DNA from: Terebella lapidaria
Lineage: Eukaryota; Annelida; Polychaeta; Terebellida; Terebellidae
Reading direction: 5' to 3'
Length of the DNA stretch: 64,000 bases
Assembly (NCBI GenBank): GCA_949152475.1
Contig: OX424564.1
Location: forward strand, 40,298,165-40,362,164
Positions 13,417 through 64,000 of this stretch are shown here, in pieces (position 1 is the first letter of the stretch; every line of letters starts with the position of its first letter). The notes under the pieces are model-generated. The model searched no databases. It had not been told where the DNA came from and saw only the letters and a program-made list of their open reading frames with translations. Both the position numbers and the translations under genes were made by a program.

Positions 13417-13511
13417 GAAAATAAAAAAAAAATTCCTCCTTTTCAAAATATGTTTAGACATTTTTATGCAAAATTTCAGAAAGATTCACCCGTAAACTTT
13501 AAAGATAAAAA
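13417..13511 (-). mobile_element. Extra copy of the Helitron-like AT-rich terminal block
   Basis: GCAAAATTTCAGAAAGATTC and ACCCGTAAACTTTAAAGATA repeat the block seen at 13250 and 41690, abutting the next element. Confidence 0.55.
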
Positions 13512-14850
13512 TTAGCCCAAGGGCTAAGATAGGTTACCGGACAAAATATATTAAAGCTATTTTGTTCCGTGGCCTTGAAAATAAGGTCACTGGTCAAATT
13601 CAAAGTCACGAGAGTATTCCACATACCAGTATATGTTTTCCTACGAGCTCACAATTGATTACTTAGCTGTAAATTCAATAATAAGCGAGATATTAGCCAT
13701 TTTGTGCTCTGACCTTGAAAATCAGAACAAAGGTCAAATTCAAGGTCATGACAATATTCAGAATATAGAATTTCCTAAAGGTTCATATTTGATTCCTAAG
13801 CTGTAAAGTCGATACTAAGCGAGATATTAGCCATTTTGTGCTCTGACCTTGAAAATCAGAACAAAGGTCAAATTCAAGGTCATGACAATATTCAGAATAT
13901 AGAATTTCCTAAAGGTTCATATTTGATTCCTAAGCTGTAAAGTCGATACTAAGCGAGATATTAGCCATTTTGTGCTCTTGACCTTGAAAATGATGTCAAA
14001 GATCAAATTCAAGGTCACGACAATATTCAGCATATATCATTTCCTATATGTCAACAACTGATTCTCATGTTGTAAAGTCGACAATAAACGAAATATTAGC
14101 CATTTTGTGCTCTGACCTTGAAAATAAGGTCGAAGGTCAAATTCAAGGTCACAAGAATATTCGGCATATGTCATTCCCTATATGTGCACAATTGATTCCT
14201 AACCTGTAAAGTCGATAATAAGTGAGATACTAGCCATTATGTGCCTGACTTTGAAAATGAGGTCGAAGGTCAATTAAGGTCGTCAAAATATTCAGCATTC
14301 ATCATTTCCTATACGTCCACAATTTAGTCCCAAGCTGTAAAGTGGATGAGCGAGATATTAGCCATTTTGTCTTTTGACCTTGAAAATGAGGTCAAAAGTC
14401 AAATTCAAGGTCATCAGAATATTCGGACTATATCATTTCCTATAATGTTCACAATTGATTCCTGAGCTGTAAAGTCGATAATCAGCAAGCTATTAGCCAT
14501 TTTGTGCTCTGACCTTGAAAATTAGGTTAAAGGTCAAATTCAAAGTCACGAGAATATTCAGCATATATCACTTCCTATATGTCCACAATTGATTCCTAAG
14601 CTGTAAAGTCGATATTAAGTGAGATATTAGCCATTTTTGTGCTTTGACCTCGGAAATTAGGTCAAAGGTCAAATTCAAGGTCATCAAAATATTCGGACTA
14701 TATCATTTCCTATATGTACACAATTGATTCCTAAGCTGTAAAGTTGATAATAAGCGACATATTAGCCATTTTGTGCTCTGACCTTGAAAATGAGGTCAAA
14801 GGTCGAATTCAAGGTCATCAAAATATTCGGACTATATCATTCCCTATATT
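13512..14850 (-). repeat. ~134-bp satellite array (family A), interrupted on the right
   Basis: Begins with TTAGCCCAAGGGCTAAGA and runs through about ten units with the AGGTCAAAGGTCAAATTC core. It includes a near-exact repeat of one whole unit (13690-13825 and 13825-13960). Broken at 14850 by a TIR element; the array resumes at 17983. Confidence 0.85.
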
Positions 14851-18585: not shown

Positions 18586-19107
18586 CTAGCCGCGATAGCC
18601 CCGCAATGTCTCCCGCTTGAAGCGTGAGGACAACGTTTTCTTACCAACTAATGTCTGGTGAATATTCATGTAGAGAGACAGGGGAATTTTATTCCATATA
18701 ATTGGGCCATTGTGCCTAATAGACCGACAGACAGCTTCGTTTTTATTATTTGTGGACTTCAATTTGAGTGCTGCACTATGCCGGGTATTATGCTCATGCA
18801 CACCAATCGATGGTACGAAAAGTTTTTGTAATAAATTCGGCACTTTCTCAGTCAAGGCACATAATACATATTTAGCAACGTATAGTTCGTAAATGTCAGT
18901 TAGTTCCATGAAATTTAGTGCTTTGAAGAGCGGTTCAGTGTGTGTGTTATATGGAACGTTGGATATCAATCGCACAAGTTTTTTTTGAAGTATGGTTAGT
19001 TTTTTTAGGTGTACTGCATGAGTACCTCCCCATATAGTTATACCATATGTTAGGTGGGGATATGCTAATGTATAGTATAAAGAAATCAAGTTCGACTTCG
19101 GTAGCAT
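18586..19107 (-). pseudogene. LINE RT C-terminal region, duplicate
   Basis: Identical to 21273-21794. Confidence 0.85.
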
Positions 19108-19163
19108 TTGTTTGGCTCTATTTATTGCAATGTAAGATTTTAGTAACCGTTTATTTACTACCT

Positions 19164-20188
19164 TTATATGCTTATCCCACTTTTAAGTTTGTAATCTATT
19201 TGAACTCCCAAAAATTTTGTGCACTTGCATTTTTCAAGGACATGACTGGCTAATTTCAATTCTAGATTATCGTCATTGTTATTACTGGTTGTGAATAGCA
19301 TGTAGTTTGTTTTTGTGACATTTAGTGAAATCTTGTTTGATTTAAACCAGTCCGTCAAGTTGCCTAATTCTTCGTTCATTATGGTATATAAATGAGTCAA
19401 ATTTTTGTGTGAGCAATACAGCGTGGTATCGTCTGCAAATAAAATGGAATTAGAGTGGCCTAATACATTGGGCAAGTCATTAGTATATATTATAAACAGA
19501 AGTGGTCCTAAGACTGATCCCTGTGGTACCCCGCATGTTATTTCCCTTGTTCCCGAATTTACCCCGTTATAAGACACAAATTGCTTTCTATTGGATAAAT
19601 AGTCATTGAACCGTTCTAGCGCTGTCCCGCGTACACCATAAAATTCCAGTTTGCGTAATAATATAGCATGATCTATAGTATCAAATGCCTTCGAGAGGTC
19701 TAAAAAAATGGCCAAAGTGGGGTCTTTTTCTTCTAGATTTTTAGTAACATCATCAATGAACTTGGTTATTGCATCAAATGTGCTGCGTTTTGAACGGAAG
19801 CCATACTGGTTTTCATATAGTATGCTAATTTTTTCCATGAATTTTGACAGTCTCTTATGCATTATTTTTTCCATTATTTTAGATACAACAGGCAATAGTG
19901 AGATTGGCCTATAATTCGTCAGGTCTGATTTGCTTTTCGACTTATGGATTGGAATGACTTTTGCTAATTTGAGAGCTGTTGGGACTTTCCCAGTTTGGAA
20001 GGATTTGTTAATTATTATGCTTAATGGCTCAGCTACAGAAGTCTGCAGTTCCTTCAATAATTTTGAACTTATTTTATCGTGACCGAAACTATTTTTTGGC
20101 TTGATATTTTTGAGGACATTACTGATTTCGATGGGATCTGTGGGTTCTATGAACATGGATTTCGGATTTGGTTTTTGATTCAAGTGAA
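19164..20188 (-). pseudogene. LINE reverse transcriptase, truncated duplicate
   Basis: Same 339 codons as the C-terminal part of 21851-23137; the upstream part is removed by the duplication junction at 20188/20189. Confidence 0.92.
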
Positions 20189-22875
20189 TCTGCTTAACTT
20201 TATTCAGTGGATAAAATAAACTCTTGATGATGTATTCATGGGATTGTTTTGTCCAAAATGGTAATACGTGGTAATGAATAGCGCAACTACATTTGAAAAC
20301 AGATTTCCTTCACAAATAGTTATTTCTGACGTTCAAATACCAGTCGAAGTGCATTTTTGCAATTGAAATAATGCATAATTGTCATTGGAATGTGTTTGAT
20401 TGGATTCCTCAACCCTCAAAACCCAAGAAAGGACACTAAGATTACACTTCTAGCACGTCTAGAAGCAGAGAAAAATCAAAAACCAACTTTTTGATCGGAC
20501 TCGGCGACCATCTTGGAAAAAGTCATTTTTTCCATTGTTTGGACACTTTTAGAGAAGGTTACCCGGTCTAATATTTTTCCTGATATAAAAACCTACAGAA
20601 TGACACCAAGAAACCTAATATGCCCGATTTGGCGACGAAATTTTTTTTTTTCAGAATGGCCCACAGACTATATGTGCACAATTGATTCCTAAGCTGTAAA
20701 GTCGACAATAAGCGAGATATTAGCCATTTTGTGGTCTGACCTTGAAAATCAGATCAAAGGTCAAATTCAAGGTCATGACAATATTCAGAATATAACATTT
20801 CCTATAGGTTCACAATTGATTCCTAAGCTGTAAAGTCGATAATAAGCGAGATATTAGCCATTTTGTGCTCTTGACCTTGAAAATGAGGTCAGAGGTGATT
20901 GATTGATTGAATTTATTCAGGAACTATACACATTCATACAAATGTACAGGATAATTTTTTACAATGTTAAAATAATGAGATGTATAGCCCTGAGCTGTGG
21001 GGATAGAGTCTGTTAGACTGTAGACCTCAGTGGTAGGAAGTCATATTTACACGATAGGAGAGATGAAAAAAATGAATAAACGAGGCACCCCACAGCTCTT
21101 CACATAAAAAATTGTTTGTTATATGTTGCCATATATACATGCGAATATTTGTAATTTTGACAAAAATAAACATTTATACAAGGTTGTTAAGTGCTGTGAG
21201 TTGTCTGCCGCTATCTGTCCCCACTGCGCCGACACGCCCCCGCGCCCATGCTGAGTCCGAGTCTGCACGTCCCTAGCCGCGATAGCCCCGCAATGTCTCC
21301 CGCTTGAAGCGTGAGGACAACGTTTTCTTACCAACTAATGTCTGGTGAATATTCATGTAGAGAGACAGGGGAATTTTATTCCATATAATTGGGCCATTGT
21401 GCCTAATAGACCGACAGACAGCTTCGTTTTTATTATTTGTGGACTTCAATTTGAGTGCTGCACTATGCCGGGTATTATGCTCATGCACACCAATCGATGG
21501 TACGAAAAGTTTTTGTAATAAATTCGGCACTTTCTCAGTCAAGGCACATAATACATATTTAGCAACGTATAGTTCGTAAATGTCAGTTAGTTCCATGAAA
21601 TTTAGTGCTTTGAAGAGCGGTTCAGTGTGTGTGTTATATGGAACGTTGGATATCAATCGCACAAGTTTTTTTTGAAGTATGGTTAGTTTTTTTAGGTGTA
21701 CTGCATGAGTACCTCCCCATATAGTTATACCATATGTTAGGTGGGGATATGCTAATGTATAGTATAAAGAAATCAAGTTCGACTTCGGTAGCATTTGTTT
21801 GGCTCTATTTATTGCAATGTAAGATTTTAGTAACCGTTTATTTACTACCTTTATATGCTTATCCCACTTTTAAGTTTGTAATCTATTTGAACTCCCAAAA
21901 ATTTTGTGCACTTGCATTTTTCAAGGACATGACTGGCTAATTTCAATTCTAGATTATCGTCATTGTTATTACTGGTTGTGAATAGCATGTAGTTTGTTTT
22001 TGTGACATTTAGTGAAATCTTGTTTGATTTAAACCAGTCCGTCAAGTTGCCTAATTCTTCGTTCATTATGGTATATAAATGAGTCAAATTTTTGTGTGAG
22101 CAATACAGCGTGGTATCGTCTGCAAATAAAATGGAATTAGAGTGGCCTAATACATTGGGCAAGTCATTAGTATATATTATAAACAGAAGTGGTCCTAAGA
22201 CTGATCCCTGTGGTACCCCGCATGTTATTTCCCTTGTTCCCGAATTTACCCCGTTATAAGACACAAATTGCTTTCTATTGGATAAATAGTCATTGAACCG
22301 TTCTAGCGCTGTCCCGCGTACACCATAAAATTCCAGTTTGCGTAATAATATAGCATGATCTATAGTATCAAATGCCTTCGAGAGGTCTAAAAAAATGGCC
22401 AAAGTGGGGTCTTTTTCTTCTAGATTTTTAGTAACATCATCAATGAACTTGGTTATTGCATCAAATGTGCTGCGTTTTGAACGGAAGCCATACTGGTTTT
22501 CATATAGTATGCTAATTTTTTCCATGAATTTTGACAGTCTCTTATGCATTATTTTTTCCATTATTTTAGATACAACAGGCAATAGTGAGATTGGCCTATA
22601 ATTCGTCAGGTCTGATTTGCTTTTCGACTTATGGATTGGAATGACTTTTGCTAATTTGAGAGCTGTTGGGACTTTCCCAGTTTGGAAGGATTTGTTAATT
22701 ATTATGCTTAATGGCTCAGCTACAGAAGTCTGCAGTTCCTTCAATAATTTTGAACTTATTTTATCGTGACCGAAACTATTTTTTGGCTTGATATTTTTGA
22801 GGACATTACTGATTTCGATGGGATCTGTGGGTTCTATGAACATGGATTTCGGATTTGGTTTTTGATTCAAGTGAA
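20189..22875. repeat. Tandem duplication, copy 2 (2,687 bp)
   Basis: Directly abuts copy 1. The LINE continues beyond 22875 only in this copy, so this is the ancestral right-hand context. Confidence 0.97.
21273..21794 (-). pseudogene. LINE RT C-terminal region
   Basis: 173 codons: SLYYTLAYPHLTYGITIWGG, typical of the region after RT in Jockey/CR1-type LINEs, then a tail with RHNGPIIWNKIP. Out of frame with the RT above. Confidence 0.85.
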
Positions 22876-23137
22876 GGTAATGGTCGGAACTGTGAGCTGG
22901 ACGCGGAATATTGCTGGCTAGTTGTGGTCCTATATTGGTAAAGAAAGAACAGAAAGATTCAGATATTAGCTTATTATCGTTCGTTTCAGTGTTATTGATC
23001 ATGAATGTCTGGTTTACATTATTTATGCCTTTCATTTTGCCAATGCTCCTATTAATGATTTCCCAAGTTTTTCTTACATTGTCTTTGTGTTCCTTCAATA
23101 AATTACCATAATATTGTTTTTTAGTTATTCGCTTCAA
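21851..23137 (-). pseudogene. LINE reverse transcriptase, frame-broken at its C-terminus
   Basis: 428-codon frame with LTNYRPISLLPVVSKIMEK, motif A LAIFLDLSKAFDTIDHAIL, motif B GVPQGSVLGPLLFIIYTNDLP and motif C ILFADDTTLY. Catalytic FADD is intact. The frame ends near 21851 by frameshift; the continuation lies in another frame at 21273-21794. Confidence 0.92.
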
Positions 23138-23198
23138 CTTGTTATGTAAATTTCGATATTTTATATAATCTTTATAATCAGTATCTGTTTTGGATTTT

Positions 23199-23876
23199 TT
23201 AATGCACTTGGCATAGTGTGTGGGATGATTTCATGAGTCCCTTTGTCATCCATGGCTCACGCAGTATGTTTCTTGCAGGAATTGTGACATTTCTTACAGG
23301 GGCATGTTTATCTAGTGCGAGGTTCAATTGTGAAACGAAATAGTCAATTGCTTTATCTGGGGACATAAGGTGTAGGTCTTGCCATTTTATATTATCGAGT
23401 GTCTCTTTTATGTGGTTGATACTCTGGTTTGTTAATTTTCTGCTCGCAAATGTTAGCGGTTTATTACATGTTGTTACTTTATTTGGGCATCTTATGGAAA
23501 AGAAAACAGGCAAATGGTCAGAAATGTCATCAAAAAGAATCGCAGATTGCGTAAACAATTTCGAGTTGATTTTGACATATATATTATCAATAAGCGTGGC
23601 AGTCTGGCATGTAATCGGCGTGGGCTTAGTTATGGTGGGAATTAATTGGTTGGAGTACATTATGTCAAACAAGTCAGATGTATACTTGTGTGACTGTAAT
23701 TTTAGAAGATCGAAGTTCTGATCCGTGCCAATAATAACGTTATTGTTATTCCTCAAGTTTAGGAGGATTTCTTCATATCTGTCCACTGAGAGTTTCGGGT
23801 TACTGTTTGGTACTCTATAAACTTCGCCAATAACAGTCTGTGTATTATTAGATTTGACTTCAACAAACACTGACTC
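23199..23876 (-). pseudogene. LINE endonuclease domain, 5'-truncated
   Basis: About 220 codons: a partial exonuclease-endonuclease-phosphatase fold with GEVYRVPNSN, VIIGTDQNFDLLKL, TATLIDNIYV and DDISDHLPVFFSI (the terminal SDH motif). The N-terminal catalytic part is missing. A frame break separates it from the RT. Confidence 0.85.
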
Positions 23877-24900
23877 AGCATATATCATTTCCTATATGTC
23901 CACAATTGATTTCTAAGCTGTAAAATCGATAAGTGAGATATTAGCCATTTTGTTCTGTGACCTTGAAAATGAGGTCAAAGGTCAAATTCAAGGTCATGAC
24001 AATAATCGGCATATATCATTCCCTATATGTTCATAATTGATTCCTAAGCTGTAAAGTCGATAACAAGCGAGATATTAGCCATTTTGTCCTGTGACCTTGA
24101 AAATGAGGTCAAAGGTCAAATTCAAGGTCATCAGAATATTCAGCATATATCATTTCCTATATGTCCACAATTGATTCCTAAGCTGTAAAGTTGATAATAA
24201 GCGAGATATAAGCCATTTTGTGCTCTGATCTTGAAAATGAGGTCAGAGGTCAAATTCAAGGTCACGAGAATATTCAGCATATATCATTTCCTATATGTCC
24301 ACAATTGATTCCTAGTCTCTGATCTCAATATTAGGTGAGATATTAGGCATAATGTGTCCCATTATAAAGCATAGGAGAATTTAACATGGGAAAGTCCCAT
24401 TTGGGCCGAGTTTGGGCCCAAAATGGCCCACTTCGAGCGATTCAAGGGCAACGAAATTTATACATGTCACAGGGGTACATATGTGGAGTGTTATGCATCA
24501 ATAAGGAAAAAAGTTACTGAACAGATTTTGAGAAAACGATCGTCAAAATCCAAAATTGGCCATTTTTTGACGAAAACGGCCGTTCTGACCTTGAAACCGA
24601 GGTCAGGGGTCAAATTCAAGGTCACGAGAATATTCAGCATAGGCCTATATCATTTCCTATATGTCCACAATTGATTCCTAGTCTCTAATATCAATATTAA
24701 GTGAGATATTAGGCTTAATGTGTCCCATATAAAGCATAGGAGAGTTTAACATGGGAAAGTCCCATTTGGGTCGAGTTTGGGCCAAAATGGCCCACTTCGA
24801 GCGATTCAAGCGCAACGAAACTTATACACATCACATGAGTACAAATGAGGATTGTTATGTATCAACAAGGGCCACTGGCCTCAAAGGAAGAGCTTTGAAA
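23877..24900 (-). mobile_element. Helitron-like DNA, right part of the interrupted array
   Basis: About four family A units (23877-24330), then the terminal block (GGGAAAGTCCCATTTGGGCC, 24386), cut at 24590. A second, shorter satellite plus terminal block follows (24590-24860). The junction inside the AAAACGGCCG motif suggests recombination between two copies. Confidence 0.65.
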
Positions 24901-34222: not shown

Positions 34223-36687
34223 GTGGGACCAGTCCGACCGGCCCGCCACTGGTCCCAATTAGTAAACCACCCGGCGAGAACATTGTGTGCAAAGTCAGAA
34301 ATCACAGTAATTCTGAAGAGATATCTGCTTTCCTCCCCTGTGCAATTGGGAATATGCAAGTTAACTTTCTGATTGATACTGGAGCTGCAGTGACTGTGTT
34401 ATCTGACATTGTGTATAATAGGATACCTCCTAATGTGAGACCCCCATTGAAGAAAGCTCAACTTTCGGTGAAACTCGAAGGAGCAGACCAGCAACCCATA
34501 AATGTGCACGGGATAGCAAGGATTACATTTTGTGTTAATGGCCGAACATTCGAATGGGATATGTTTGTTGCGGCTATTTCAGAAGAAGGACTTCTGGGAA
34601 TGGACTTCTTGTATGAAAATGATTTTGTACTTGCTGCTGAGGGTGGTCTGCAACTCGAGGGACATTGTGTTGACATTGTTTTGGAGGGAACACCCCCAAA
34701 ACTGCAGAAAATCACCCTCAAGGAGGATACATGGATACCAGCTATGTCTGAGTGTGTTGTGTCTTGTGTCAGACAAAAACCTTTGCCTGAGGCTACAGTT
34801 AGGTGCTGTGTGGCAGAGCCCCTGTCTGGGCAAGCTGCCGGTGAGGATATACATGTAGCAAGGACCCTTGTTAGTGTAGGTCAGAATTGTGAAGTTCCCC
34901 TGCGTCTGATGAACACCGCTTCAGAAAACAAGCTGTTGTACAAGGGAACTGTTTTGGCGCAATTGCATGAAGTCAGTGATGTCATGGAAATTGACAGTAC
35001 CAGTAACAGAGGAGCGGGAAAGCTACGCAACATGCAACCCTCAAGGAAAGATCAAAAAGTGCCTGATCTGGATACCTGGCCCCAAAGTGTTCGTGACTTG
35101 TATGATAAAACAAAGGAGAGTTTATCTGAGGACCAGGCAGTGAGCCTTGCACAGTTGTTCCAGAGACATTTGGGTGTATTTGCTACTTCACCCATCGATC
35201 TTGGGCGAACATCGCTTGTTACTCATCACATTGACACTGGTGATGCCAAACCCATCAAGCAAGCATCACGGCGTCCACCACTCGCATTCAAGGATGAAGA
35301 GGATAAGATCCTTGCGGACCAGCTCAAGGCTGGTGTGATTCGGGAGTCTTCGTCGCCGTGGGCCTCACCACTGGTCTATGTGAAAAAGAAGGATGGGTCA
35401 ACTCGCCCCTGTGTGGATTACAGACGCCTCAATGAAGTGACACGGAAAGACGCATACCCACTCCCACGTATCGATGATTGCCTCGACTGTTTGTCCTCAG
35501 CACGGATATTTTCTACTCTGGACCTGCAGTCTGGATACTGGCAAATCGAGGTGAATGAAAGTGACAAGTGCAAAACAGCTTTCATAACGAGGCGCGGACT
35601 ATATGAATACAACACATTGCCATTTGGATTGTGCTCTGCGCCTGCGACATTTGAACGCTGTATGGAGCTAGTCTTCCGTGGCCTTCAGTGGCAAACTCTG
35701 CTTTTGTACCTCGATGATGTGGTCCTGATAAGTGCTACAATAGAGGAACATTTTGAAAGATTGGATGAAGTTTTCAGCCGCTTAGTAAATGCTGGACTGA
35801 AACTCAAAGCGAGCAAGTGTGAACTTTTGCAGGAAGAAGTTCATTTCCTCGGACATATTGTAAGTCATCATGGTGTGCGTCCAGATGACAAGAAGGTACA
35901 GTGTATCAGTGAATGGCGGGAGCCTAGTGACTTGAGGGAGTTACGTTCTTTTCTGGGAGCAGTCAGCTCCTACAGGAGACACATCAAATCATTCTCAGCA
36001 ATTGCCGCACCACTACACAGACTCACCATGGCCGGGATGAAATTTGTGTGGACGGCAGAGTGTCAGGCTGCATTTCAAAAGCTAAAGGACATTCTATGCA
36101 GTAGTGAAGTGATGGCATTCCCTCAGGATAATGGATTATATATTCTTGACACTGATGCTAGTGACACAGCGATAGGAGCTGTGCTCTCTCAAATGCAGTG
36201 GAGTGAAAAGCTTCAGAAGGAAATTGAGCGACCGATTTGTTATGCTAGTCGCAGCATGACTAAGACACAGCGTCGATACTGTGTCACAAGAAGAGAACTT
36301 TTGGCAGTTGTGTTCTTCTCGGAACATTTCAAGCATTATCTGTTGGGAAGGTCATTTGTGGTGCGCACTGATCATTGTGCACTGCGGTGGCTGATGACCT
36401 TCCGAGAGCCGACTAATCAGATGGCAAGATGGCTAGAACTCTTGTCACAATTTGACTTCAAAATCCTGCACAGAGCAGGTGCTTCTCATCAGAATGCAGA
36501 TGGGATGAGCAGGATACCGTGTGACCCCGATGAGTGTTTGTGCTATGATGGCCAAACGATATTGGAAAATCTACCGTGTGGTGGATGTGAGAGTTGTGAA
36601 AAGAAGCACAAGGAATGGTCCAGCTTCTTTGAAACTGAGGATGTTGTACCACTTATCAGCAAGAAAGTAGAGCCAGTTCGAAGAGTT

Positions 36688-37077
36688 GCTGCTGTCGGGA
36701 CGAGTGACAATCAGGATCGAGAGGATGCCGATGTGTCCAGGGTACGACAGATGGATAGCAACAGTGCTGCTGTCGGGACGAGTGACAATCAGGATCGAGA
36801 GGATGCCGATGTGTCCAGGGTACGACAGATGGATAGCACCAGTGCTGCTGTCGGGACGAGTGACAATCAGGATCACAAAGATGCCTATGTGTCCAGGGTA
36901 CGACAGATGGATAGCAACAGTGCTGCTGTCGGGACGAGTGACAATCAGGATCGAGAGGATGCCGATGTGTCCAGGGTACGACAGATGGATAGCACCAGTG
37001 CTGCTGTCGGGACGAGTGACAATCAGGATCACAAAGATCCCTATGTGTCCAGGGTACGACAGATGGATAGCAACAGT
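36688..37077 (+). repeat. 78-bp in-frame tandem repeat, 5 copies, within pol
   Basis: Five 78-bp units encode 26 residues each (AAVGTSDNQD..DA.VSRVRQ and so on). Units vary as RED or HKD and as SNS or STS, giving pattern A-B-C-B-C, which suggests that a two-unit block was itself duplicated. The site is the linker between RNase H and integrase. Confidence 0.95.
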
Positions 37078-37723
37078 GAAATGACAGTAGCCCCTGTCTC
37101 AAGTGTGACAATGTGTGTCATCTTGGGTACTGTGTTATGTGCAATGGGACAAGGGCTGGATTACTGTATTTCAAAGGTGAACTTGGCCGCCTACAGCTGT
37201 GTGAAGTGCTTACAACATGTGTACAGCTCAGTCTGCCACAAGTGGTGGTCAGAGCTGAGCTGGGGGTCACGCCCCAAAGGAGTGACAAGGACTGTGCGGA
37301 TAGGCGTTGTGACGCAGAGGAAGTGCAGCGCCCAAGGAATAGGCGATGTCACAGTTAGCGATCACCGAGCAGGTGCTGATGGCAGTTTGGAGAGATTGCA
37401 TGGATCATCCAAACACAGTACAGCCGACCTGAAGGAGAAACAACTCGGGGACCCAGATGTGTCAGAAGTCATCAAATGGATAGCAGCAGCACAGAAGCCC
37501 CCAAAGAACGAGGTTGTCCGGAAATGTGCAGCAACACGTGAATTGTGGTTACTATGGGACCAACTTGTGCTGAAAAATGGTGTTCTGTACAAGTGGCATC
37601 ACCCCAGTAATGGTGACAAACCACACTTGCAATTTGTGGTACCAGCATGTTTACGGGACGAAGTCTTGTCTGCTATGCATGATTCTATGAGCGGGGCTCA
37701 TTTGGGAATGAAAAGGACTTTGT

Positions 37724-46912: not shown

Positions 46913-48835
46913 GGCCAAGGGCCGACGATAGGTTACCGGACAATGTTTAATATTTTAGATGTTAGCCAGGTCACTGGTTAAATTCAAGGTGAAGAGAATA
47001 TTCAGCATCTATAATATTAAGCATATATCATGTCCACAGTTGATTGCTAAGCTGTAAATTCAATAATCAGAGAGATATTAGCAATTTTGTGTTGTGGCCT
47101 TGAAAATGAAGGCAAAGGTCAAATTCAAGGTCATCAAAATATTCAGTGTATATCATGTTCTATATGTCCACAAGGAGCAAGATAAGAGCCAGTTCGTCCT
47201 TGGACCTTGGAAATGAGGTCGGAGGTCAAATTCAAGGTCACGAGAATATTCAGCATATATCATTTCCTATATGTCCACAATTGATTCCTAAGCTGCAAAA
47301 TCGATAATGAGGAGATATTAACCATTTCGTCCTGTGACCTTGAAAATGAGGTCAAAGGTCAAATTCAAGGTCATGACAATAGTTTGCATATTTCATTTCC
47401 TATATGTTCATACCTGATTCCTAAGCTGTGAAGCCGATAACAAGCAAGATATTAGCCATTTTGTCCTATAACCTTGAAAATGGGGTCAAAGGTCAAATTT
47501 AAGGTCATCAGAATATTCAGCATATATCATTTCCTATATGTCCACAATTGATTTCTAAGCTGTAGAGTCGATAATAAGCGAGATATAAGCCATTTTGTCC
47601 TATAACCTTGAAAATGGGGTCAAAGGTCAAATTCAAGGTCATCAAAATATTCAGCATATATCATTTCCTATATGTTCACTATGGATTCCTAGGCTGTAAA
47701 GCCCAAAATGAGCAAGCTATTAGCCATTTTGTCATGTGACATTGCAAATTAGGTCAAAGGAATGTTTCATTTCCTATATGCTCACAATTGATTCCTGACC
47801 TGTAAAGTCGATAATAAGCGAGATATTAGCCATTTTGTTCTTTGACCTTTAAAATGAGGTCAAAGGTCAAATCCAAGGTCAGCACTTTATTCGGACTATA
47901 TCATTCCCTATATGTCCACAATTGCTTCCTAAGCTGTATATTCGATAATGAGCGAGATATTAGCCATTTTGTGCTCTGACCTTGAGAATGAGGTCAAAGG
48001 TAATATTCAAGGTCATTGAAATATTCGGCATACATCATTTCCTGTATGTTCACAATTTATTCCTAAGTTGCAAAGTAAATAATAAACGAGATATTAGCCA
48101 TTTTGTGCTCTGACCTTGAAAATGAGGTCAAAGGTAAAATTCAAGGTCATCAAAATATTCAGCATATATCATTTTTTATATGTTCACTATGGATTCCTAG
48201 GCTGTAAAGTCGAAAATGAGCAAGCTATCAGCCATTTTGTCATGTGACCTTGCAAATTAGGTCAAAGGAATGTATAATTTCCTATATGTTCACAATTGAT
48301 TCCTGAGCTATAAAGTCGATAATGAGCGAGATATTAGCCATTTTGTTCTTTGACCTTGAAATGAGGTCAAAGGTCAAATCCAAGGTCAGCACAATATTCG
48401 GACTATATCATTTCCTATATGTCCACAATTGATTCCTAAGCCGTAAATTCGATAATGAGCGAGATATCAGCTATTTTGTTGTCTGACCTTGAAAATGAGG
48501 TCAAAGGTAAAATTCAAGGTCATTGAAATATTCGGCATACATCATTTCCTATATGTTCACAATTTCTTGTATGTTCCTATATGTTCACAAGTTTTAAAGT
48601 AAATAATTAACGAGATATTAGCCATTTTGTGCTCTGATCTTGAAAATGAGGTTAGGTCAAATTCATGGTAATCGAAATATTTGGATATATCATTTCCTAT
48701 ATGTTCGTAATTGTTGCCTAAGCTGTAAGGTCGAAAATAAGCGAGATATTAGCCATTTTGTGCTCTGACCTTGAAAATGAGGTCAAAGGTCAAATTTAAG
48801 GTCATGAAAATATTCAGCATAAATCATTGTATTCC
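46913..48835 (-). repeat. ~134-bp satellite array (family A), about 13 units
   Basis: Starts at CCAAGGGCCGACGATAGG with AGGTTACCGGACA, as at 12037 and 13512, and runs to about 48835. Nearly every unit carries the TGACCTTGA / AGGTCAAAGGTCA cluster. Confidence 0.9.
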
Positions 48836-52299: not shown

Positions 52300-53290
52300 A
52301 ATATTACTGAATAAGTTAATGTTAATTTTACTAGTTGTCTAATACTGACCACAATAAAAAATAGTTAAGATGAGAAACTTTTATTAATAAGCTCAACAAG
52401 GTGGAGGTTTTGTCCAGTACAGATTTCATGGGTATAACCGAATAAGTTAACATGATTTTTACTAGTTAAGTCTATTATTGACCACAATAAAAATAGTTAA
52501 GACAAGAAATATTTATTATTGACCCAACCAGGTAAAGGTTTTGTCCAGTAGAGATTTTATGGCTGTAACCAAATAAGTTAACTTTATTTTTGCTAGTTAA
52601 ATCTACTATCGACCACAATAAAAATAGTTAAGATGAGAAACATTTATTATTGGACTCAACAAGGCAAAGGTTTTGTCCAGTAGAGATTTATGGCTGTAAC
52701 CAAATAAGTTAACATTATTTTTGCTAGTTAAAAGTCTATTATTGACCACAATAAAAAAATAGTCAAGATGAAACATTTATTATTGAGCTCAACAATGTAA
52801 AGGTTTTGTCCAGTACAGATTTCATGGGTATAACCGAATAAGTTAACATTATTTTTACTAGTTGAGTCTATTATTGACCACAATAAAAATAGCTAAAACA
52901 AGAAATATTTATTATTGGGCTCAACAAGGTAAAGGTTCTGTCCAGTAGAGATTTTATGGCTGTAACCAATAAATAAACATTATTTTTGCTGGTTAAGTCT
53001 ACTATTGACCTCAATAAAAATAGTAGATGAGAAACATCTATTATTGAGCTCAACAGGGTACAGGTTTTGTCCAGTAGCGATTTCTGGGTGTAACCAAATA
53101 AGTTATCATTATTTTTACTCATTAAAAATTATTTACCACAATAAAAACAGTTAGACAGGAAATGTTTATTTTAGGCCTAATAAGGTAAAGGTACTGTCCA
53201 GTAGAGATAAAAATAGCTGTGACCAAATAAGTTAACATTCTTTTTTTGCTAGTAAAGTCTGTTATTGACCACAACAAAAATAATAAAGAC
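52300..53290 (-). repeat. ~130-bp satellite array (family B), about 7 units
   Basis: Repeating CATTTATTATTGRRCTCAAC, GGTTTTGTCCAGTAGAGATT and GTTAACATTATTTTTACTAG at ~130-bp spacing. Confidence 0.9.
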
Positions 53291-53299
53291 GAGGAACTT

Positions 53300-53960
53300 T
53301 TAATATTGAGCTTGAGTTTGGCACATATGATGAAAACATTGATCTGGCTCCAATTTTGTCATCTTGAAATGCAGTTTTGGTCAACTTTTACTTTGAAATT
53401 TCAACTTGAAACTATGTTTGGGACATATTATGAGTTAAAATATAACTTATGGGAAAAAATTAGATCGGGCTCCAATTTTGTCATCTTGAAATGCAGTTTT
53501 GTTCGACTTTCACTTTGAATTCCAACTTGAAACCATGTTTGGTACATATTATAATTTGTAATATAACTTGTGCGAAAAGTTCGGTCTGGCTCCAATTTCG
53601 TCATCTTGAAATGCAGTTTTGGTCAACTTTTACTTTGATTTTCAACTTGAAACCATGTTTGGCACATATCATGAGCTAAAATATAAGTTATGGTGAAAAG
53701 TTCGATCTGGCTCTAATTTTGTCATCTTGAAATGCAGTTTTGGTCAACTTTTACATTGAATTTCAACTTAAAACCAAGTTCGGCACATATTATGAGTTAA
53801 AATATAACTCATGCCGAAAAGTTCGATCTGGCTCCAATTTTGTCATTTTTAAATGCAGTTTTGGTCAACTTTTACTTGGAATTTCAACTTTGAACCAAGT
53901 TTGTCAAATATTCTGAGTTGAAATATAATTAAGTGAAAAGATTGACCTGGCTGTAATTTC
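53300..53960 (+). repeat. ~121-bp satellite array (family C), about 5 units
   Basis: Repeats of TTGTCATCTTGAAATGCAGT near 53357, 53479, 53600 and 53720 with TTCGATCTGGCTCCAATTTT. Not coding. Confidence 0.9.
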
Positions 53961-55679: not shown

Positions 55680-55768
55680 CTAGAATTTATCAACAAGACT
55701 TAAGATTCTTTGCTGTTCTTCTTGTTTCGCATCTGGATTCTCTGCATCCCCAATATTACCAGCATACT
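55680..55768 (-). CDS. CTNNBL1: CTNNBL1 terminal exon
   Basis: Acceptor GTTTTCAG; codes EYAGNIGDA … QQRILSLVDKF then TAG (55680-55682). Matches the conserved C-terminus. Confidence 0.95.
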
Positions 55769-58700
55769 CTGAAAACATCAATTGAACTGGGGTCAGAATT
55801 CTGCTCTTTAGTTGTCAAGGACTTGCCTGTTGTTGTATAAAATTGCTGCCTTGACATGTGGGTTCTGTCATTGAGCTGATACGGGACCAACCTCTCATAA
55901 TGCTCTTTATGGCCTTGGTGGAGCCTCCTCGCATGTTCAGGATTTGGGTCACTCGCTGCTTGATCTGTCAGAGAACCATTTATCCAATTGTCAAAACCTA
56001 GGCAAGATTGAGGTAAGCTTGAATATTTATCGTGACAACTAAATTGTCAAACTATTGTGCATTCACAAACAACTATTAATCTTATAATCACCTACTGGTA
56101 CCTAATATTGAACACAGTGTCTGTGATACGTACAGTGGACGGTGAACACAGTGTCTGTGGTACGTACAGTGGACGGTGAACACAGTGTCTGTGGTACGTA
56201 CAGTGGACGGTGAACACAGTGTCTGTGGTACGTACAGTGGACGGTGAACACAGTGTCTGTGGTACGTACAGTGGACGGTGAACACAGTGTCTGTGGTACG
56301 TACAGTGGACGGTGAACACAGTGTCTGTGATACGTACAGTGGACGGTGAACACAGTGTCTGTGGTACGTACAGTGGACAGTGAACACAGTGTCTGTGGTA
56401 CGTACAGTGGACGGTGAACACAGTGTCTGTGGTACGTACAGTGGACGGTGAACACAGTGTCTGTGATACGTACAGTGGACGGTGAACACAGTGTCTGTGG
56501 TACGTACAGTGGACGGTGAACACAGTGTCTGTGATACGTACAGTGGACGGTGAACACAGTGTCTGTGATACGTACAGTGGACCGGTGAACACAGTGTCTG
56601 TGATACGTACAGTGGACGGTGAACACAGTGTCTGTGGTACGTACAGTGGACGGTGAACACAGTGTCTGTGATACGTACAGTGGACGGTGAACACAGTGTC
56701 TGATACGTACAGTGGACGGTGAACACAGTGTCTGTGATACGTGGACGGTGAACACAGTGTCTGTGGTACATACAGTGGACGGTGAACACAGTGTCTGTGG
56801 TACGTACAGTGGACGGTGAACACAGTGTCTGTGGTACGTACAGTGGACGGTGAACACAGTGTCTGTGGTACGTACAGTGGACGGTGAACACAGTGTCTGT
56901 GGTACGTACAGTGGACGGTGAACACAGTGTCTGTGGTACGTACAGTGGACGGTGAACACAGTGTCTGTGATACTTACAGTGGACGGTGAACACAGTGTCT
57001 GTGATACGTACAGTGGACGGTGAACACAGTGTCTGTGGTACGTACAGTGGACGGTGAACACAGTGTCTGTGATACGTACAGTGGACGGTGAACAGTGTCT
57101 GTGATACGTACAGTGGACGGTGAACACAGTGTCTGTGGTACGTACCGTGGACGGTGAACACAGTGTCTGTGATACGTGGACGGTGAACACAGTGTCTGTG
57201 GTACGTACAGTGGACGGTGAACACAGTGTCTGTGGTACGTACAGTGGACGGTGAACACAGTGTCTGTGATACGTACAGTGGACGGTGAACACAGTGTCTG
57301 TGGTACGTACAGTGGACGGTGAACACAGTGACTGTGATACGTACAGTGGACGGTGAACACAGTGTCTGTGGTACGTACAGTGGACGGTGAACACAGTGTC
57401 TGTGGTACGTACAGTGGACGGTGAACACAGTGTCTGTGGTACGTACAGTGGACGGTGAACACAGTGTCTGTGATACGTACAGTGGACGGTGAACACAGTG
57501 TCTGTGATACGTACAGTGGACGGTGAACACAGTGTCTGTGGTACGTACAGTGGACGGTGAACACAGTGTCTGTGGTACGTACCGTGGACGGTGAACACAG
57601 TGTCTGTGGTACGTACATTGGACGGTGAACACAGTGTCTGTGGTACGTACAGTGGACGGTGAACACAGTGACTGTGGTACGTACAGTGGACGGTGAACAC
57701 AGTGTCTGTGGTATGTACAGTGGACGGTGAACACAGTGTCTGTGGTACGTACAGTGGACGGTGAACACAGTGTCTGTGGTACGTACAGTGGACGGTGAAC
57801 ACAGTGTCTGTGGTACGTACAGTGGACGGTGAACACAGTGTCTGTGGTACGTACAGTGGACGGTGAACACAGTGTCTGTGATACGTACAGTGGACGGTGA
57901 ACACAGTGTCTGTGATACGTACAGTGGACGGTGAACACAGTGTCTGATACGTACAGTGGACGGTGAACACAGTGTCTGTGGTACGTACAGTGGACGGTGA
58001 ACACAGTGTCTGTGATACCTACAGTGGACGGTGGACACAGTGTCTGTGATACGTACAGTGGACGGTGAACACAGTGTCTGTGGTACGTACAGTGGACGGT
58101 GAACACAGTGTCTGTGGTACGTACAGTGGACGGTGAACACAGTGTCTGTGATACGTACAGTGGACGGTGAACACAGTGTCTGTGATACGTACAGTGGACG
58201 GTGAACACAGTGTCTGTGGTACGTACAGTGGACGGTGAACACAGTGTCTGTGGTACGTACAGTGGACGGTGAACACAGTGTCTGTGGTACGTACAGTGGA
58301 CGGTGAACACAGTGTCTGTGGTACGTACAGTGGACGGTGAACACAGTGTCTGTGGTACGTACAGTGGACGGTGAACACAGTGTCTGTGATACGTACAGTG
58401 GACGGTGAACACAGTGTCTGTGGTACGTACAGTGGACGGTGAACACAGTGACTGTGATACGTACAGTGGACGGTGAACACAGTGTCTGTGGTACGTACAG
58501 TGGACGGTGAACACAGTGTCTGTGGTACGTACAGTGGACGGTGTCTGTGGTACGTACAGTGGACGGTGAACACAGTGTCTGTGGTACGTACAGTGGACGG
58601 TGAACACAGTGTCTGTGATACGTACAGTGGACGGTGAACACAGTGTCTGTGGTACGTACAGTGGACGGTGAACACAGTGTCTGTGATACGTACAGTGGAC

Positions 58701-60716
58701 AGTGAACACAGTGTCTGTGATACGTACAGTGGACGGTGAACACAGTGTCTGTGGTACGTACAGTGGACGGTGAACACAGTGTTTGTGATACGTACCGTGG
58801 ACGGTGAACACAGTGTCTGTGGTACGTACAGTGGACGGTGAACACAGTGTCTGTGATACGTACAGTGGACGGTGAACACAGTGTCTGTGATACGTACAGT
58901 GGACGGTGAACACAGTGTCTGTGATACGTACAGTGGACGGTGAACACAGTGTCTGTGGTACGTACAGTGGACGGTGAACACAGTGTCTGTGGTACGTACA
59001 GTGGACGGTGAACACAGTGTCTGTGATACGTGGACGGTGAACACAGTGTCTGTGATACGTACAGTGGAGGGGCCGGAGACGCTGATCTCCATCATAACGT
59101 AGTCAATAAGCTGGAGTGTGAAGAGGCCGGCATCAAGTCGCTGCAGATAGAACTCATCCTCCGTCTCCTCATCCAGCTCTCCCCCGTATTTGTACAGGTC
59201 CTGTTTATCATAATCATTTGTGGTAAACTGCCATCCTGCTAAATATTAAACTTCTCACTTTCCTGATACCGAATTGAATGTAATCATGTATTACGATTGA
59301 TCATGTAATGAACAGTTACTGACATTTTTTTCTTTTTGGATTCGTTCATCTGCATGTCGAACTCTGTCCAAATACTGGAAGTGTAGCTCCATCAACCGGT
59401 CCACCTGACCAAATTTCACATAGACGCAGTGAAGAACAGTTTGATATATATCGGCATCAAAACGTGTACAAAGTCATCAAGAAGATATATACATATAGAT
59501 CTAAACTGTATCTAATCTGACTGACCTTTTCGTGGTCATTTTCAGCGAATTTCTGGATGAGTCTCTGTCGCTGGGTGGCTGTTGTGTTTCTCACCATTGA
59601 CGCAATTATTGAGATTATGTGCTCTTGATTGTCGGAAAGACCAAAACAGTATACAACATAAGCATGGATGCATCGTTTTCAACCAGTCATTGATAAACAT
59701 ATCAGCGATTTGTTAATAGTCATGTGACTTACCATCTAACTCCTTCTTGGAGGGTCCAACTTTCTTGTGTGCTTTGGGGGTTTTCATAAACAGAGGGAAG
59801 ATGTTCCTCAAGCCGAGGATGTCCACAAACTTCTGACAATTATCCGCACCATCGGGTCCAGACATGGCGTGGTTCAGAACTTTGACAGCACTGGAGCGGG
59901 ATAGCTTCTTCTCTCTGTAAGTTGTGCCTCAATCTTTTCATTTCTCTTCACCAAATACATTTTTCAAAATGCTAAATGCTAAACAATGTTTGTCAACATG
60001 TCAACAAATATTTATACTTTTTGATAATCATACTGGTGTGTAAGCCATACCTCAGTAACAAATTCATGAGCTGCAGGCCTTCACCTTTCAAAAACCTCTC
60101 CTTGTTTGTGGTAAGCATTAGAGCTGAACATGTACAATCAAATAAGTTTTCCATGTACTCAATCTCCTCACTGTTTGAGGGGTCATGTCGCTTGTATGTC
60201 TGCAAACCAAATACAAGATTCAAAACTATCAAGTACAAGACTGGATATATTGTACTAAAATACTTATATACAACACCTACCCAAACTATTTTTATACACA
60301 TCTGTTCAAAGAAAAAGCTTTGAATTTGTAATTTTGTCTTGTGTGAAGAACTGACTGCAAGCTGTTGTAGCAGAATGTCAATACCATCCATCTCTCCTAG
60401 CAGCTTCCGATTATCTGAAATAAGCAAACATGAGACTTCTCCCTGTTATAGTGAAGATGGCCTTGAGAACTGTCAGATACCAGTTAAATAATACTATGGT
60501 ACCTGGCAATTGAAAAGATCAATTCTATTCATTAAAGCCACCAATTTATTCCTGATTAGTTATGTGCACATGTAGGTGTTTGACAAATTGATGTATTACA
60601 TGTATGTCAATACAATGTATATGTTTACTGGTGATCAACTTACCATTATGATTTTGAATCAATATTGAGAGTATTTCACTGGCATACAGTTTGTTCGCAT
60701 CGAAAGGCATCTTGGC
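55680..60716 (-). CDS. CTNNBL1: CTNNBL1 (beta-catenin-like protein 1), C-terminal exons
   Basis: Nine minus-strand exons with consistent phases: 60644-60716, 60356-60414, 60051-60199, 59733-59914, 59526-59623, 59324-59404, 59063-59200, 55892-55964 and 55680-55768 (stop TAG). Joined, they follow vertebrate CTNNBL1 closely as I recall it: KMPFDANKLY, LLGEMDGIDILLQQL, ERFLKGEGLQLMNL, NCQKFVDILGLRNIFPLFMK, VDRLMELHFQYL, FYLQRLDAGLFTLQ, QRVTQILNMRGGS, and a C-terminus ending RILSLVDKF. It is an armadillo-like helical-repeat nuclear protein that associates with the Prp19/CDC5L spliceosome complex. N-terminal exons lie beyond the window. The intron between the last two large exons holds a 3-kb minisatellite built on its own donor site. 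Confidence 0.95.
55892..55964 (-). CDS. CTNNBL1: CTNNBL1 exon after the minisatellite intron
   Basis: 73 nt; acceptor CTCTGACAG, donor G|GTTGGT. Encodes IKQRVTQILNMRGGSTKAI and onward. Confidence 0.94.
56108..59067 (-). repeat. 34-bp minisatellite (~87 units) repeating a 5' splice site
   Basis: About 2.96 kb of 34-bp units with few changes. On the minus strand each unit contains CCACTGTACGT, identical to the exon end plus donor at 59063. Main variation is G or A in TGTG(G/A)TACG on the + strand; some units are short (e.g. 56700, 56740, 57090, 58540). GTACGTAC is an 8-bp palindrome in each unit. As 34 is not divisible by 3 and no minus frame has a stop in the unit, all three frames appear open. 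Confidence 0.98.
59063..59200 (-). CDS. CTNNBL1: CTNNBL1 exon ending at the minisatellite
   Basis: 138 nt, 46 codons (DLYKYGGELDEETEDEFYLQ … MMEISVSGPST). Acceptor AACAG. The donor CCACT|GTACGT is also the first unit of the 34-bp array, so donor choice rests on homology: the next exon (IKQRVTQ…) joins here in phase 0 as in other animals. Without splicing the frame stays open to about 58019. Confidence 0.92.
59324..59404 (-). CDS. CTNNBL1: CTNNBL1 exon (VDRLMELHFQYLDRV…)
   Basis: 81 nt, 27 codons, phase 0 at both ends; donor GTCAGT. Confidence 0.94.
59526..59623 (-). CDS. CTNNBL1: CTNNBL1 exon (HIISIIASMVRNTTATQRQR…)
   Basis: 98 nt; acceptor AATCAAG (weak), donor GTCAGT. Ends LIQKFAENDHEK as in the family. 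Confidence 0.92.
59733..59914 (-). CDS. CTNNBL1: CTNNBL1 exon (EKKLSRSSAVKVLNHAMSG…)
   Basis: 182 nt; acceptor ACTTACAG, donor GTAAGT. Includes NCQKFVDILGLRNIFPLFM and a Lys-rich linker. Confidence 0.95.
60051..60199 (-). CDS. CTNNBL1: CTNNBL1 exon (TYKRHDPSNSEEIEYMENLF…)
   Basis: 149 nt; acceptor TTTGCAG, donor GTATGG. Contains the highly conserved ERFLKGEGLQLMNL. Confidence 0.95.
60356..60414 (-). CDS. CTNNBL1: CTNNBL1 exon (NRKLLGEMDGIDILLQQLA)
   Basis: 59 nt; acceptor ATTTCAG, donor GTCAGT. Phase 2-in, 0-out. Confidence 0.94.
60644..60716 (-). CDS. CTNNBL1: CTNNBL1 exon (AKMPFDANKLYASEI…)
   Basis: 73 nt; acceptor TTTGCAG, donor G|GTAAGT. 24 codons plus one base. Its last 35 nt and the donor are also present at 61510-61590 as an 81-bp identical copy. 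Confidence 0.93.
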
Positions 60717-61087
60717 CTGCAAATAAATTTTGTAGTATCAAACAGCAGCAACAATAATAAAATTTGTGTCAGTTAATTCTGCTACCAGGGTACAACCTGA
60801 TATAACTGGGTCACTACATCATGTGTATCATTCCCACAAACTGGACATAGAAAGTGCCACCACCCCTTGCATTATGAACAAAATCATTTCGCTTTTCAAA
60901 CTCATCTGATTTGGGTCTAAAAATGACCTAAAACTAGATTTCAAGGTCTAAATATGCCTTACAGGCATTTCCGTGTAAAGACTGATTTATAACAAGCTGA
61001 CTCATCAAAACATTTTATATCTAAGACCTAAGACCTCAGTGTTTCATTTTGAATTAGTAATAGAGAAAATCTTGAGTCCTTTTGAAA
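60717..61087. other. CTNNBL1 intron, unique part
   Basis: No further CTNNBL1 exon recognised here. A short GGTCTAAAAATGACC-type stretch looks repeat-derived. Confidence 0.5.
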
Positions 61088-61419
61088 CTAGACGCTTCCG
61101 GTCGCCTACGACCACTTGGGTGTATCCCCCGTAGCCCTATCATCTCTGTTGCCCCAAATATATCACTGTTCAGTGTGAAAAGCAAGAGCAAGGGCTAAAA
61201 AATATTCCCAGAGAAATGTTGATCTCAAGTCACAACTTTTTTCTTTTCTCCACCAAAATTGCTGCACTGATCTTCCGAGGTTATCGAATTCAAAATCACC
61301 ACTGAAATCTCTTTACATGTATATGAATTTCACTTTCGACATGTTTGATAAAATAATGAAAATACAGATAGATCAATCTTTTCACCTATTTATATTTCAA
61401 CTCAGAATATTTTACAAAC

Positions 61420-62560
61420 TTGGTTCCAAGTTGAAATTCAAAGTAAAAGTTGACCAAAACTGCATTTCAAGATGACAAAATTGGAGCCAGATCAAACTTA
61501 TTTCGACTAACATGTATGTCAATACAATGTATATGTTTACTGGTGATCAACTTACCATTATGATTTTGAATCAATATTGAGAGTATTTCAAGTTGAAAGA
61601 CAAGTTGAAATTCAAAGTAAAAGTTGACCAAAACTGCATTTCAAGATGACGAAATTGGAGCCAGATCGAACTTTACACGACTAATAAAACATGGTTCCAA
61701 GTTGAAATTCAAAGTAAGAGTTGACCAAAACTGCATTTCAAGATGACAAAATTGGAGCCAGATCGAACTTTTCGTCATAAGTTATATTTTAACTCATAAT
61801 ACCTGCCCAACTTGGTTTCAAGTTTAAATTCAAACTAAAAGTTGACCAAAACTGCATTTCAAGATGACGAAATTGGAGCCAGATCAAACTTTTCGCCATG
61901 AGTTATATTTCAACTCGTAATATGTGCCAAACTTGGTACTAAGTTGAAATTCAATGTAAAAGTTGACCAAAACTGCATTTCAAAATGACGAAATTGGAGC
62001 CAGATCGAACTTTTCGTCATAAGTTATATTTTAACTCATAATATGTCCCAAACTTGGTTACAAGTTGAAATTCAAGCTAAAAGTTTACCAAAACTGCATT
62101 TCAAGATGAAGAAATTGGAGCCAGATCGAACTTTTCATCATAAGTTATATTTTAACTCATAATATGTGCCAAACTTGGTTTCAAGTTGAAATTCAAACTA
62201 AAAGTTGACCAAAAGTGCATTTCAAGATGACGAAATTGGAGCCAGATCAAACTTTTCACCATAAGTTATATTTCGACTAATAATATGTGCCAAACATGCT
62301 TTCAATTTGAAATTCAAAGTAAAAGTTGACCAAAACTGCATTTCAAGATAACGAAGTTGGAGCCAGATCGAACTTTTCACCATAAGTTATATTTCGACTC
62401 ATAATATGTGCCAAACAGGCTTTCAAGTTGAAATTCAAAGTAAAAGTTGACAAAACTGCATTTCAAGATGACGAAATTGGAGCCAGATCTAATAATTTGT
62501 GCCAAACATGGTCTCAAGTCGAAATTCAAAGTAAAAGTTGATCAATGTTTTTCATAAAAA
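61420..62560 (-). repeat. ~121-bp satellite array (family C), about 9 units
   Basis: Repeats of ACTGCATTTCAAGATGACRA and AATTGGAGCCAGATCRAACT; inverted relative to 53300-53960. Interrupted by the 81-bp CTNNBL1 copy. Confidence 0.9.
61510..61590 (-). repeat. 81-bp copied CTNNBL1 exon/intron junction
   Basis: Identical to 60598-60678 (offset 912): the last 35 nt of exon 60644-60716, its GTAAGT donor and 46 nt of intron, embedded between family C units. Confidence 0.97.
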
Positions 62561-62729
62561 GCTTTTGTGATCAATAATATACTTAACTAGCAAGAAATAA
62601 TGTTAACTTATTTAGTCACAGCCATAGAATCTCTACTGGACAAAGCCTTCACCTTGTTGAGCCCAATAATAAATATTTCTTGTCTTAATTATTTCCATTG
62701 TGGTCAATAATAGACTTAACATGTAAAAA

Positions 62730-64000
62730 CTAGACGCTTCCGGTCGCCTACGACCGCTTGGGTGTATCCCCCGTAGCCCTATCATCTCTGTTGCCCCAAA
62801 TATATCACTGTCAAGTGTGAAAAACTAGAGCCAGGGCTAAAAAAGATTACCAGAGAAATGTTAAATCACAAGTCACAACTGTTTTCTTTTCCCCACCAAA
62901 ATTGCTGCACTGATTTTCCGAGGTTATTGAAGGTGGAATTCAAAATCACCACTGAAATCTCTTTATATGAATTTCCATTCGACATGTTTGATAAAATAAC
63001 GAAAATACAGATAGATCAATCTTTTCACCTATTTATATTTCAACTCTGAATATTTTACAAACTTGTTAACTTATTTGATCACAGCCATAAAATCTCTACT
63101 GGACAAAGCCTTCACCTTGTTGAGCCCAATAATAAATATTTCTTGTCTTAACTATTTTCATTGTGGTCAATAATAGACTTAACATGTAAAAATAAAGTTA
63201 ACTTATTCGGTTACACCCAGAAATTTCTACCGGACAAAATCTTAACCTTGTTGAACTCAATAATAATTGTTTCTCATCTTAATTATTTTTATTGAGGTCA
63301 ATAATAGACTTAACTAGCAAAAAAAATGTTAACTTATTTGGTTACAGATATAAAATGTCTACTGGACAGAATCTTTACCTTGTTGAGCCCAATAATAAAT
63401 ATTTCTTGTCTTAACTATTTTTATTGTGGTCAATAATAGACTAAACTAGTAAAAATAATGTTAACTTACTCAGTACACCCATGAAATCTGTACTGGACAT
63501 ACTTTCACCTTGTTGAGCTTAATAATAAATATTTCTCATCTTAACTATTTTTATTGTGGTCAATAATAAACTTAACTCTATTTTTTATTGTGGTCAATAA
63601 TAGACCTAACTAGTAAAAATAATGTTAACTTATTCGGTTACACCAATGAAATTTGTACTGGACAAAACATTTACCTTGTTGAGGTTAATAATAAATATTT
63701 CTTGTCTTAACTATTTTTATTGTGGTCAATAATAGACTTAACTATTAAAAATAATGTTGACTTATACAGTTACACCCATGAAATCTGTACTGGACAAAAC
63801 CTTTACCTTGTTGAGCTTAATAATAAACGTTTCTCGTCTTAACTATTTTTATTGTGGACAATAATAGACTTAACTAGTAAAACTAATGTTAACTTATTCA
63901 GTAATATTGTCCTGTTTTCACTGAAAACTTCAGTTCTCCATTCTGAACAAGAAACCAGTGTCATTACCTTCCACTGTACAGGCTATTGGAATGATCGTAC
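62730..64000 (-). mobile_element. Second inverted Helitron-like element with family B satellite
   Basis: CTAG end at 62730-62733 with the same hairpin as 61088. It then runs through a short family C-side block and family B units to the CATTCCAATAGCC end near 63990 (mirror of 52210). Confidence 0.65.
63060..63900 (+). repeat. ~130-bp satellite array (family B), about 6 units
   Basis: Repeats of TTGTTGAGCCCAATAATAAA and TATTTTTATTGTGGTCAATA at ~130-bp spacing; reverse complement of 52300-53290. A single unit also lies at 62570-62720. Confidence 0.9.

Follow-up and report, generated by a model that had tools for sequence, protein, structure and literature searches.

The CTNNBL1 Locus

The 64,000-nucleotide (nt) stretch of Terebella lapidaria contig OX424564.1 analysed here (the window) carries on its minus strand the C-terminal part of CTNNBL1, encoded by nine exons that run from 60716 down to 55680 in one open frame; one intron of this gene contains a 34-nt minisatellite of 88 units, the first of which overlaps the end of the preceding exon. 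GT and AG are present at each of the eight introns in the window, and a 280-amino-acid (aa) query joined from the window exons, from which one junction Asn is omitted, matched human CTNNBL1 with an expect value of 6.6e-112. The closest proteins are those of bivalves (Sinanodonta, Potamilus, and Mytilus galloprovincialis, about 72% identity), followed by brachiopod and nemertean relatives with 69–71% identity; no protein or transcript of the species itself was found among the best 120 of 457 and the best 120 of 1774 protein-search matches. One more CTNNBL1 exon is located about 19 kb upstream, in a neighbouring 10-kb stretch.

The array-bearing exon (DLYKYGG...EISVSGPST, 59063–59200, minus strand), whose last 9 nt are part of unit 1, and the next exon (IKQRVTQILNMRGGSTKAIKSIMR..., 55892–55964, minus strand) were both assigned by their match to the human protein and by the joined frame. 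The intron between them (55965–59062) is 3098 nt long and ends, beyond the array, with a remainder of 144 nt (55965–56108, minus strand) terminating in TGACAG. Once 87 units are subtracted, 169 nt are left, a length within that spanned by the other seven window introns (229, 156, 136, 109, 121, 123, and 123 nt). The array was also considered as coding sequence, the frame of the exon being open to 58019; yet the exons that follow are undamaged, continue the frame, and keep the order seen in the relatives, so that the array is taken as intronic. The reading frame is intact over the junction downstream of the array-bearing exon.

Extent and Composition of the Array

Parsing by script resolves the minus strand between 59071 and 56109 (2963 nt) into 88 units, and Tandem Repeats Finder (TRF) reports 56109–59068 with a period of 34, 87.9 copies, 95% matches, and a score of 5365, the top score among its 48 rows for the window. 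Both results agree with the preliminary description of this DNA, which had proposed an array of about 3 kb and about 87 copies of a 34-bp unit at the CTNNBL1 donor. Most units (80 of the 88) are 34 nt long, while three have 29 nt, three 32 nt, one 25 nt, and one 35 nt; the consensus is CCGTCCACTGTACGTA(C/T)CACAGACACTGTGTTCA. The string CTGTACGTA is intact in 77 of the 88 units and GTANGT in 84, and the splice signal is thus carried by the units themselves. The same description held that the exon-end/donor string recurs in each unit; the unit does span the exon end and the donor, but four of the 88 lack GTANGT, three of them through a 5-nt deletion.

The polymorphic site after the donor is occupied by C in 52 and by T in 36 of all 88 units, and the order of the two variants is random (41 runs vs 43.6 expected). 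One parse yields 18 distinct unit types; long block copies are absent at the offsets tested (1–59), where the longest run of matching units is 7. Apart from the C/T site, substitutions off the consensus are rare among the 80 full-length units, which suggests that the array is young or well homogenised.

Phase of the Array and Position of the Exon/Intron Junction

The array begins 9 nt inside the exon and each unit corresponds to 9 exonic and 25 intronic nt; the start of the repeat, initially placed in the intron, has to be moved into the exon. In the unit CCGTCCACT|GTACGTAYCACAGACACTGTGTTCA, the first 9 nt match the exon end CCCTCCACT at eight of nine places, TCCACT being the exonic string common to exon and unit without mismatch, and the resemblance ends beyond those 9 nt, further into the exon. 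A 9-mer match equally good occurs outside the array at 4 of about 61000 minus-strand window positions. The other end of the array falls on a whole-unit boundary, counted from the exonic start at −9.

The native 5' splice site ACT|GTACGT (59057–59065, minus strand, with 59062 as the first intron base) was located by colinearity with human CTNNBL1 and that of other animals. In particular, a distance of 16 residues separates LQ from the IKQRV of the next exon, both in this gene and in 152 of the 173 relatives that were parsed out of 238 fetched, and the junction is placed at 59062 on account of this common spacing. The last two exon residues in the 173 relatives are SQ (38), SS (26), PS (18), PQ (18), ST (9), and others in smaller numbers. 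The exon ends here in P-S-T, to be compared with GPSS in M. galloprovincialis and Sinanodonta and GAST in Crassostrea virginica; since P-S-T is of the kind found in the relatives, the exon end looks native, and the array looks copied from the exon and not the reverse. Overwriting of the exon end by the array is not favoured in view of the similar residues of the relatives, a comparison in which synonymous positions cannot decide.

Donor Strength, Constraint, and RNA Folding

The native donor is weak. Its pairing with the 5' end of U1 is calculated at −3.2 kcal/mol and that of the commoner unit type at −2.6 kcal/mol, while the six other CTNNBL1 donors included in the scoring give −9.1, −6.3, −9.1, −6.5, −2.9, and −6.6 kcal/mol (the seventh, GCA|GTCAGT, was left out). 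It had also been suggested that the array could titrate U1. U1 is present in the order of a million copies per cell, and its titration by about 84 weak sites on the nascent transcripts of a single gene is implausible at that abundance.

With the polymorphic C/T site excluded from the counts, substitutions affect 8 of 720 sites in the donor 9-mer and 8 of 1920 in the rest of the unit (p = 0.05), a difference opposite to that expected from constraint; there is thus no sign of selection keeping the donor, which has more substitutions per site. The use of a distal donor adds units to the exon, with a frameshift or a stop at 73 of 84 positions, and an open frame is kept by the native donor and by 10 distal ones.

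In RNA folding, the mean unpaired probability is 0.32 for 16 array donors and 0.43 for the array stretch overall, and it rises to 0.43 for the array donors when the palindrome GTACGTAC is broken. The controls give 0.33 (standard deviation 0.12) when the remainder of the unit is shuffled and 0.40 (standard deviation 0.14) when a canonical donor is set in shuffled units. For six further donor sites of the gene the values range from 0.18 to 0.51; these include the duplicated copy at 61555 in place of the real donor. Masking of the donors by GTACGTAC was considered and discarded, the array donors being within the range of the other donors; the palindrome may pair a little in the folding model.

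Comparison with Known Systems

Minisatellites of this kind, termed mirages, were described in amphioxus in Adh3 and in the globin genes BflGb6 and BflGb9 (PMC3087553) as well as in Adh and troponin C (PMC3902484), with units of 10–72 bp in Adh3 and about 150–160 bp in the globins (PMC3087553); the available text of both sources reports them without effect on splicing (PMC3087553, PMC3902484). The CTNNBL1 array is alike in its tandem units, which span the boundary and carry the splice signals, and on sequence grounds it has the defining structure of a mirage. The class name chosen in the preliminary description is the right one (PMC3087553, PMC3902484), and its remark that the array is unusually long is borne out in comparison with the globins, by 88 units vs the 6 and 3 found in the two haplotypes of BflGb6 (PMC3087553). 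The host, judged from protein relatedness, is not an amphioxus, and the phenomenon described for amphioxus would gain a lophotrochozoan example, with a copy number far higher than in the globin cases.

Tandem duplications are likewise found at splice sites in lancelet PGBD5, but these are imperfect and few, as in a triplication of 3 x 108 bp (PMC3902484). In the abalone, a mollusc, the TSSK1-like gene harbours in intron 3 a minisatellite with a 27-bp unit whose copy number varies between individuals (PMC6905558); it is intronic as the CTNNBL1 array is, but its position relative to an exon boundary is not stated in the accessible part of the source (PMC6905558). Its consensus contains CAGTACG (PMC6905558). 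Human genes in segmental duplications contain internal repeats, about 30 bp each and in tandem, that alter exon/intron structure, also at exon-intron boundaries, where expansions may cause novel introns; unlike the CTNNBL1 array, human minisatellite expansions have about 4 units on average and half of them lie in coding sequence (PMC2812944). Short simple repeats were described in Conus (PMC3862624). No mollusc mirage was found among the papers listed in literature searches on repeats at splice sites or in introns, searches with most subscription journals outside their scope.

Another system with repeated 5' splice sites is the U11 small nuclear ribonucleoprotein-binding splicing enhancer (USSE) of the U11-48K and U11/U12-65K genes, in which these sites are not used for splicing (PMC5473595). 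The USSE consists of tandem sites of the minor spliceosome (U12-type) with a shown function, whereas the CTNNBL1 array has 84 weak sites of the major type and no sign of constraint.

Proposed Origin and Alternative Explanations

The array is probably a mirage-type minisatellite that has grown from a duplication across the CTNNBL1 donor, with the exon-proximal donor in use and the rest neutral. A segment of 34 nt, made of 9 exonic and 25 intronic nt, would have been tandemly duplicated once by slippage or unequal exchange and then expanded to 88 units, bringing an intron of presumably about 169 nt to 3098 nt. The exon-proximal donor is most likely still used for splicing: with the intron now long, the exon would be recognised as a unit, the donor nearest across the exon would win, and this first donor would also be the earliest to be transcribed. 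The splice sites favoured in large introns are those nearest across the exon (PMC9225289), a rule that points to use of the first donor and silence of the remainder. The distal donors, weak and evolving without visible constraint, would if used mostly give frameshifted or stopped mRNA, and the array is probably without function.

Several points weigh against this interpretation. The exonic share is just 9 nt with one mismatch, a short stretch on which to base an origin across the junction. Ten distal donors leave the frame open, and stops would not eliminate their partial use. The organisms in which the proximity rule was established may not include this host (PMC9225289). The 34-nt unit may also be present elsewhere in the genome; the 36 matches listed genome-wide, from a search that scored the best candidates and skipped common words, are all at the CTNNBL1 locus. 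In the 84 kb formed by the window and the two neighbouring 10-kb stretches, evenly spaced triples of GTAAGT, GTGAGT, AGGTAAGT, or GTACGT were found on neither strand besides those of the CTNNBL1 array, and one of three reversed control motifs gave matches, at 3730–3838, the site of a 36-bp TRF array.

The shortness of the match (TCCACT exact, 8/9 over 9 nt) is also what would be seen if an ordinary intronic minisatellite, born in the intron or immigrant, merely abutted the donor and owed its exonic resemblance to coincidence or later conversion. Arrays abound in this region (TRF lists 48 overlapping rows for the 64 kb of the window and 13 and 20 rows for the two neighbouring 10-kb stretches), and the variable 27-bp unit in intron 3 of the abalone kinase gene offers a mollusc precedent (PMC6905558). 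However, an 8/9 match at the given phase has a chance probability of 3.3e-5 (upper bound over 34 phases, 1.1e-3), and the last unit of the array, counting from the exonic start, is complete; a weaker point is the presence of the unit at the CTNNBL1 locus only, among the matches listed. An ordinary minisatellite is hence unlikely. Inflation of a few real units by mis-assembly of reads is the least credible explanation of all: the assembly quality of a tandem array would hardly be open to checking from assembled sequence, but the 18 unit types, the scattered short deletions, the two mixed variants, and the lack of long block copies stand against it, the mixture of unit variants speaking against a simple artefact. 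The array, known from one assembled sequence in a 761.6-Mb genome assembly, is accordingly taken as real.

A functional element with multiple donors, in which many weak U1 sites behind a weak donor raise local U1 occupancy and secure the definition of the upstream exon, or mediate a USSE-like feedback on CTNNBL1, would fit the preservation of GTANGT in 84 of the 88 units, the weakness of the native donor, and the precedent set in splicing-factor genes by regulatory tandem 5' splice sites at which no splicing takes place (PMC5473595). Such a role is nevertheless very improbable: the donor bases show no sign of the constraint expected of a USSE-like element, the two main unit variants follow one another at random as in a neutral array, the array donors are no more exposed in folding than other donors, and CTNNBL1 is presented as a factor of the Prp19/CDC5L complex and not as a U1 protein (PMC4538830, PMC4585563). 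We give equally little credence to the more specific version in which the array is a splicing element tuned by copy number, whose 84 weak donors raise U1 occupancy by number and secure an exon with a weak donor; if it were true, CTNNBL1 output would depend on array length, which would itself vary between individuals. In view of the weak U1 pairing, the lack of visible donor constraint, and amphioxus mirages that are reported not to disturb splicing, the change in splicing efficiency suggested at the outset is not supported.

A mirage-type array with a neutral distal part would constitute a natural experiment in which a single exon is followed by about 84 competing donors of nearly the same sequence, and transcript data could measure how position alone decides the choice of the 5' splice site. 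It also suggests how growth of about 18-fold can start at the boundary of a short intron.

Other Exons and Repeats of the Region

The remaining exons, all on the minus strand and assigned by the joined frame, are, from the first one within the window, AKMPFDANK...IQNHN (60644–60716), DNRKLLGE...LLQQLA (60356–60414), TYKRHDPS...MNLLLR (60051–60199), REKKLSRSS...KELD (59733–59914), EHIISIIAS...HEK (59526–59623), and VDRLMELHF...KEKN (59324–59404), followed beyond the array by the last coding exon, EYAGNIGD...LVDKF with the stop codon (55680–55768).

Comparison of repeat families revealed an 81-nt copy at 61510–61590 (minus strand) that includes an exon end, a GTAAGT donor, and intron sequence and is identical to 60598–60678; it sits 912 nt upstream of the latter, beside a 121-nt satellite array. 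Since it copies another CTNNBL1 exon end with its donor, boundary-spanning duplications may be frequent here. Two pairs of direct repeats in the large CTNNBL1 intron, 61085–61422 and 62727–63065, about 1642 nt apart and 94% and 98% identical, suggest a larger tandem duplication. Satellite arrays of 131 nt and 121 nt are paired at 52310–53959 and 61687–63902 in opposite orientation, flanking the 3' end of CTNNBL1, and are perhaps parts of one mobile element.

A recurrent satellite, about 134 nt in size and containing TGACCTTGAA and AGGTCAAAGGTCA motifs, is scattered in both orientations (383–1583, 12129–14849, 23875–24314, and 47175–48564) and is also found in the two neighbouring 10-kb stretches. 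Two copies of a reverse transcriptase resembling that of long interspersed nuclear elements (18586–20309 and 21273–23230) lie 2687 nt apart with the same 198-aa open reading frame; their ungapped comparison shows 1647 identical bases out of 1724, the picture left by a direct duplication. Lastly, five copies of a 78-nt repeat occur at 36687–37078 within an open gypsy-like pol frame.
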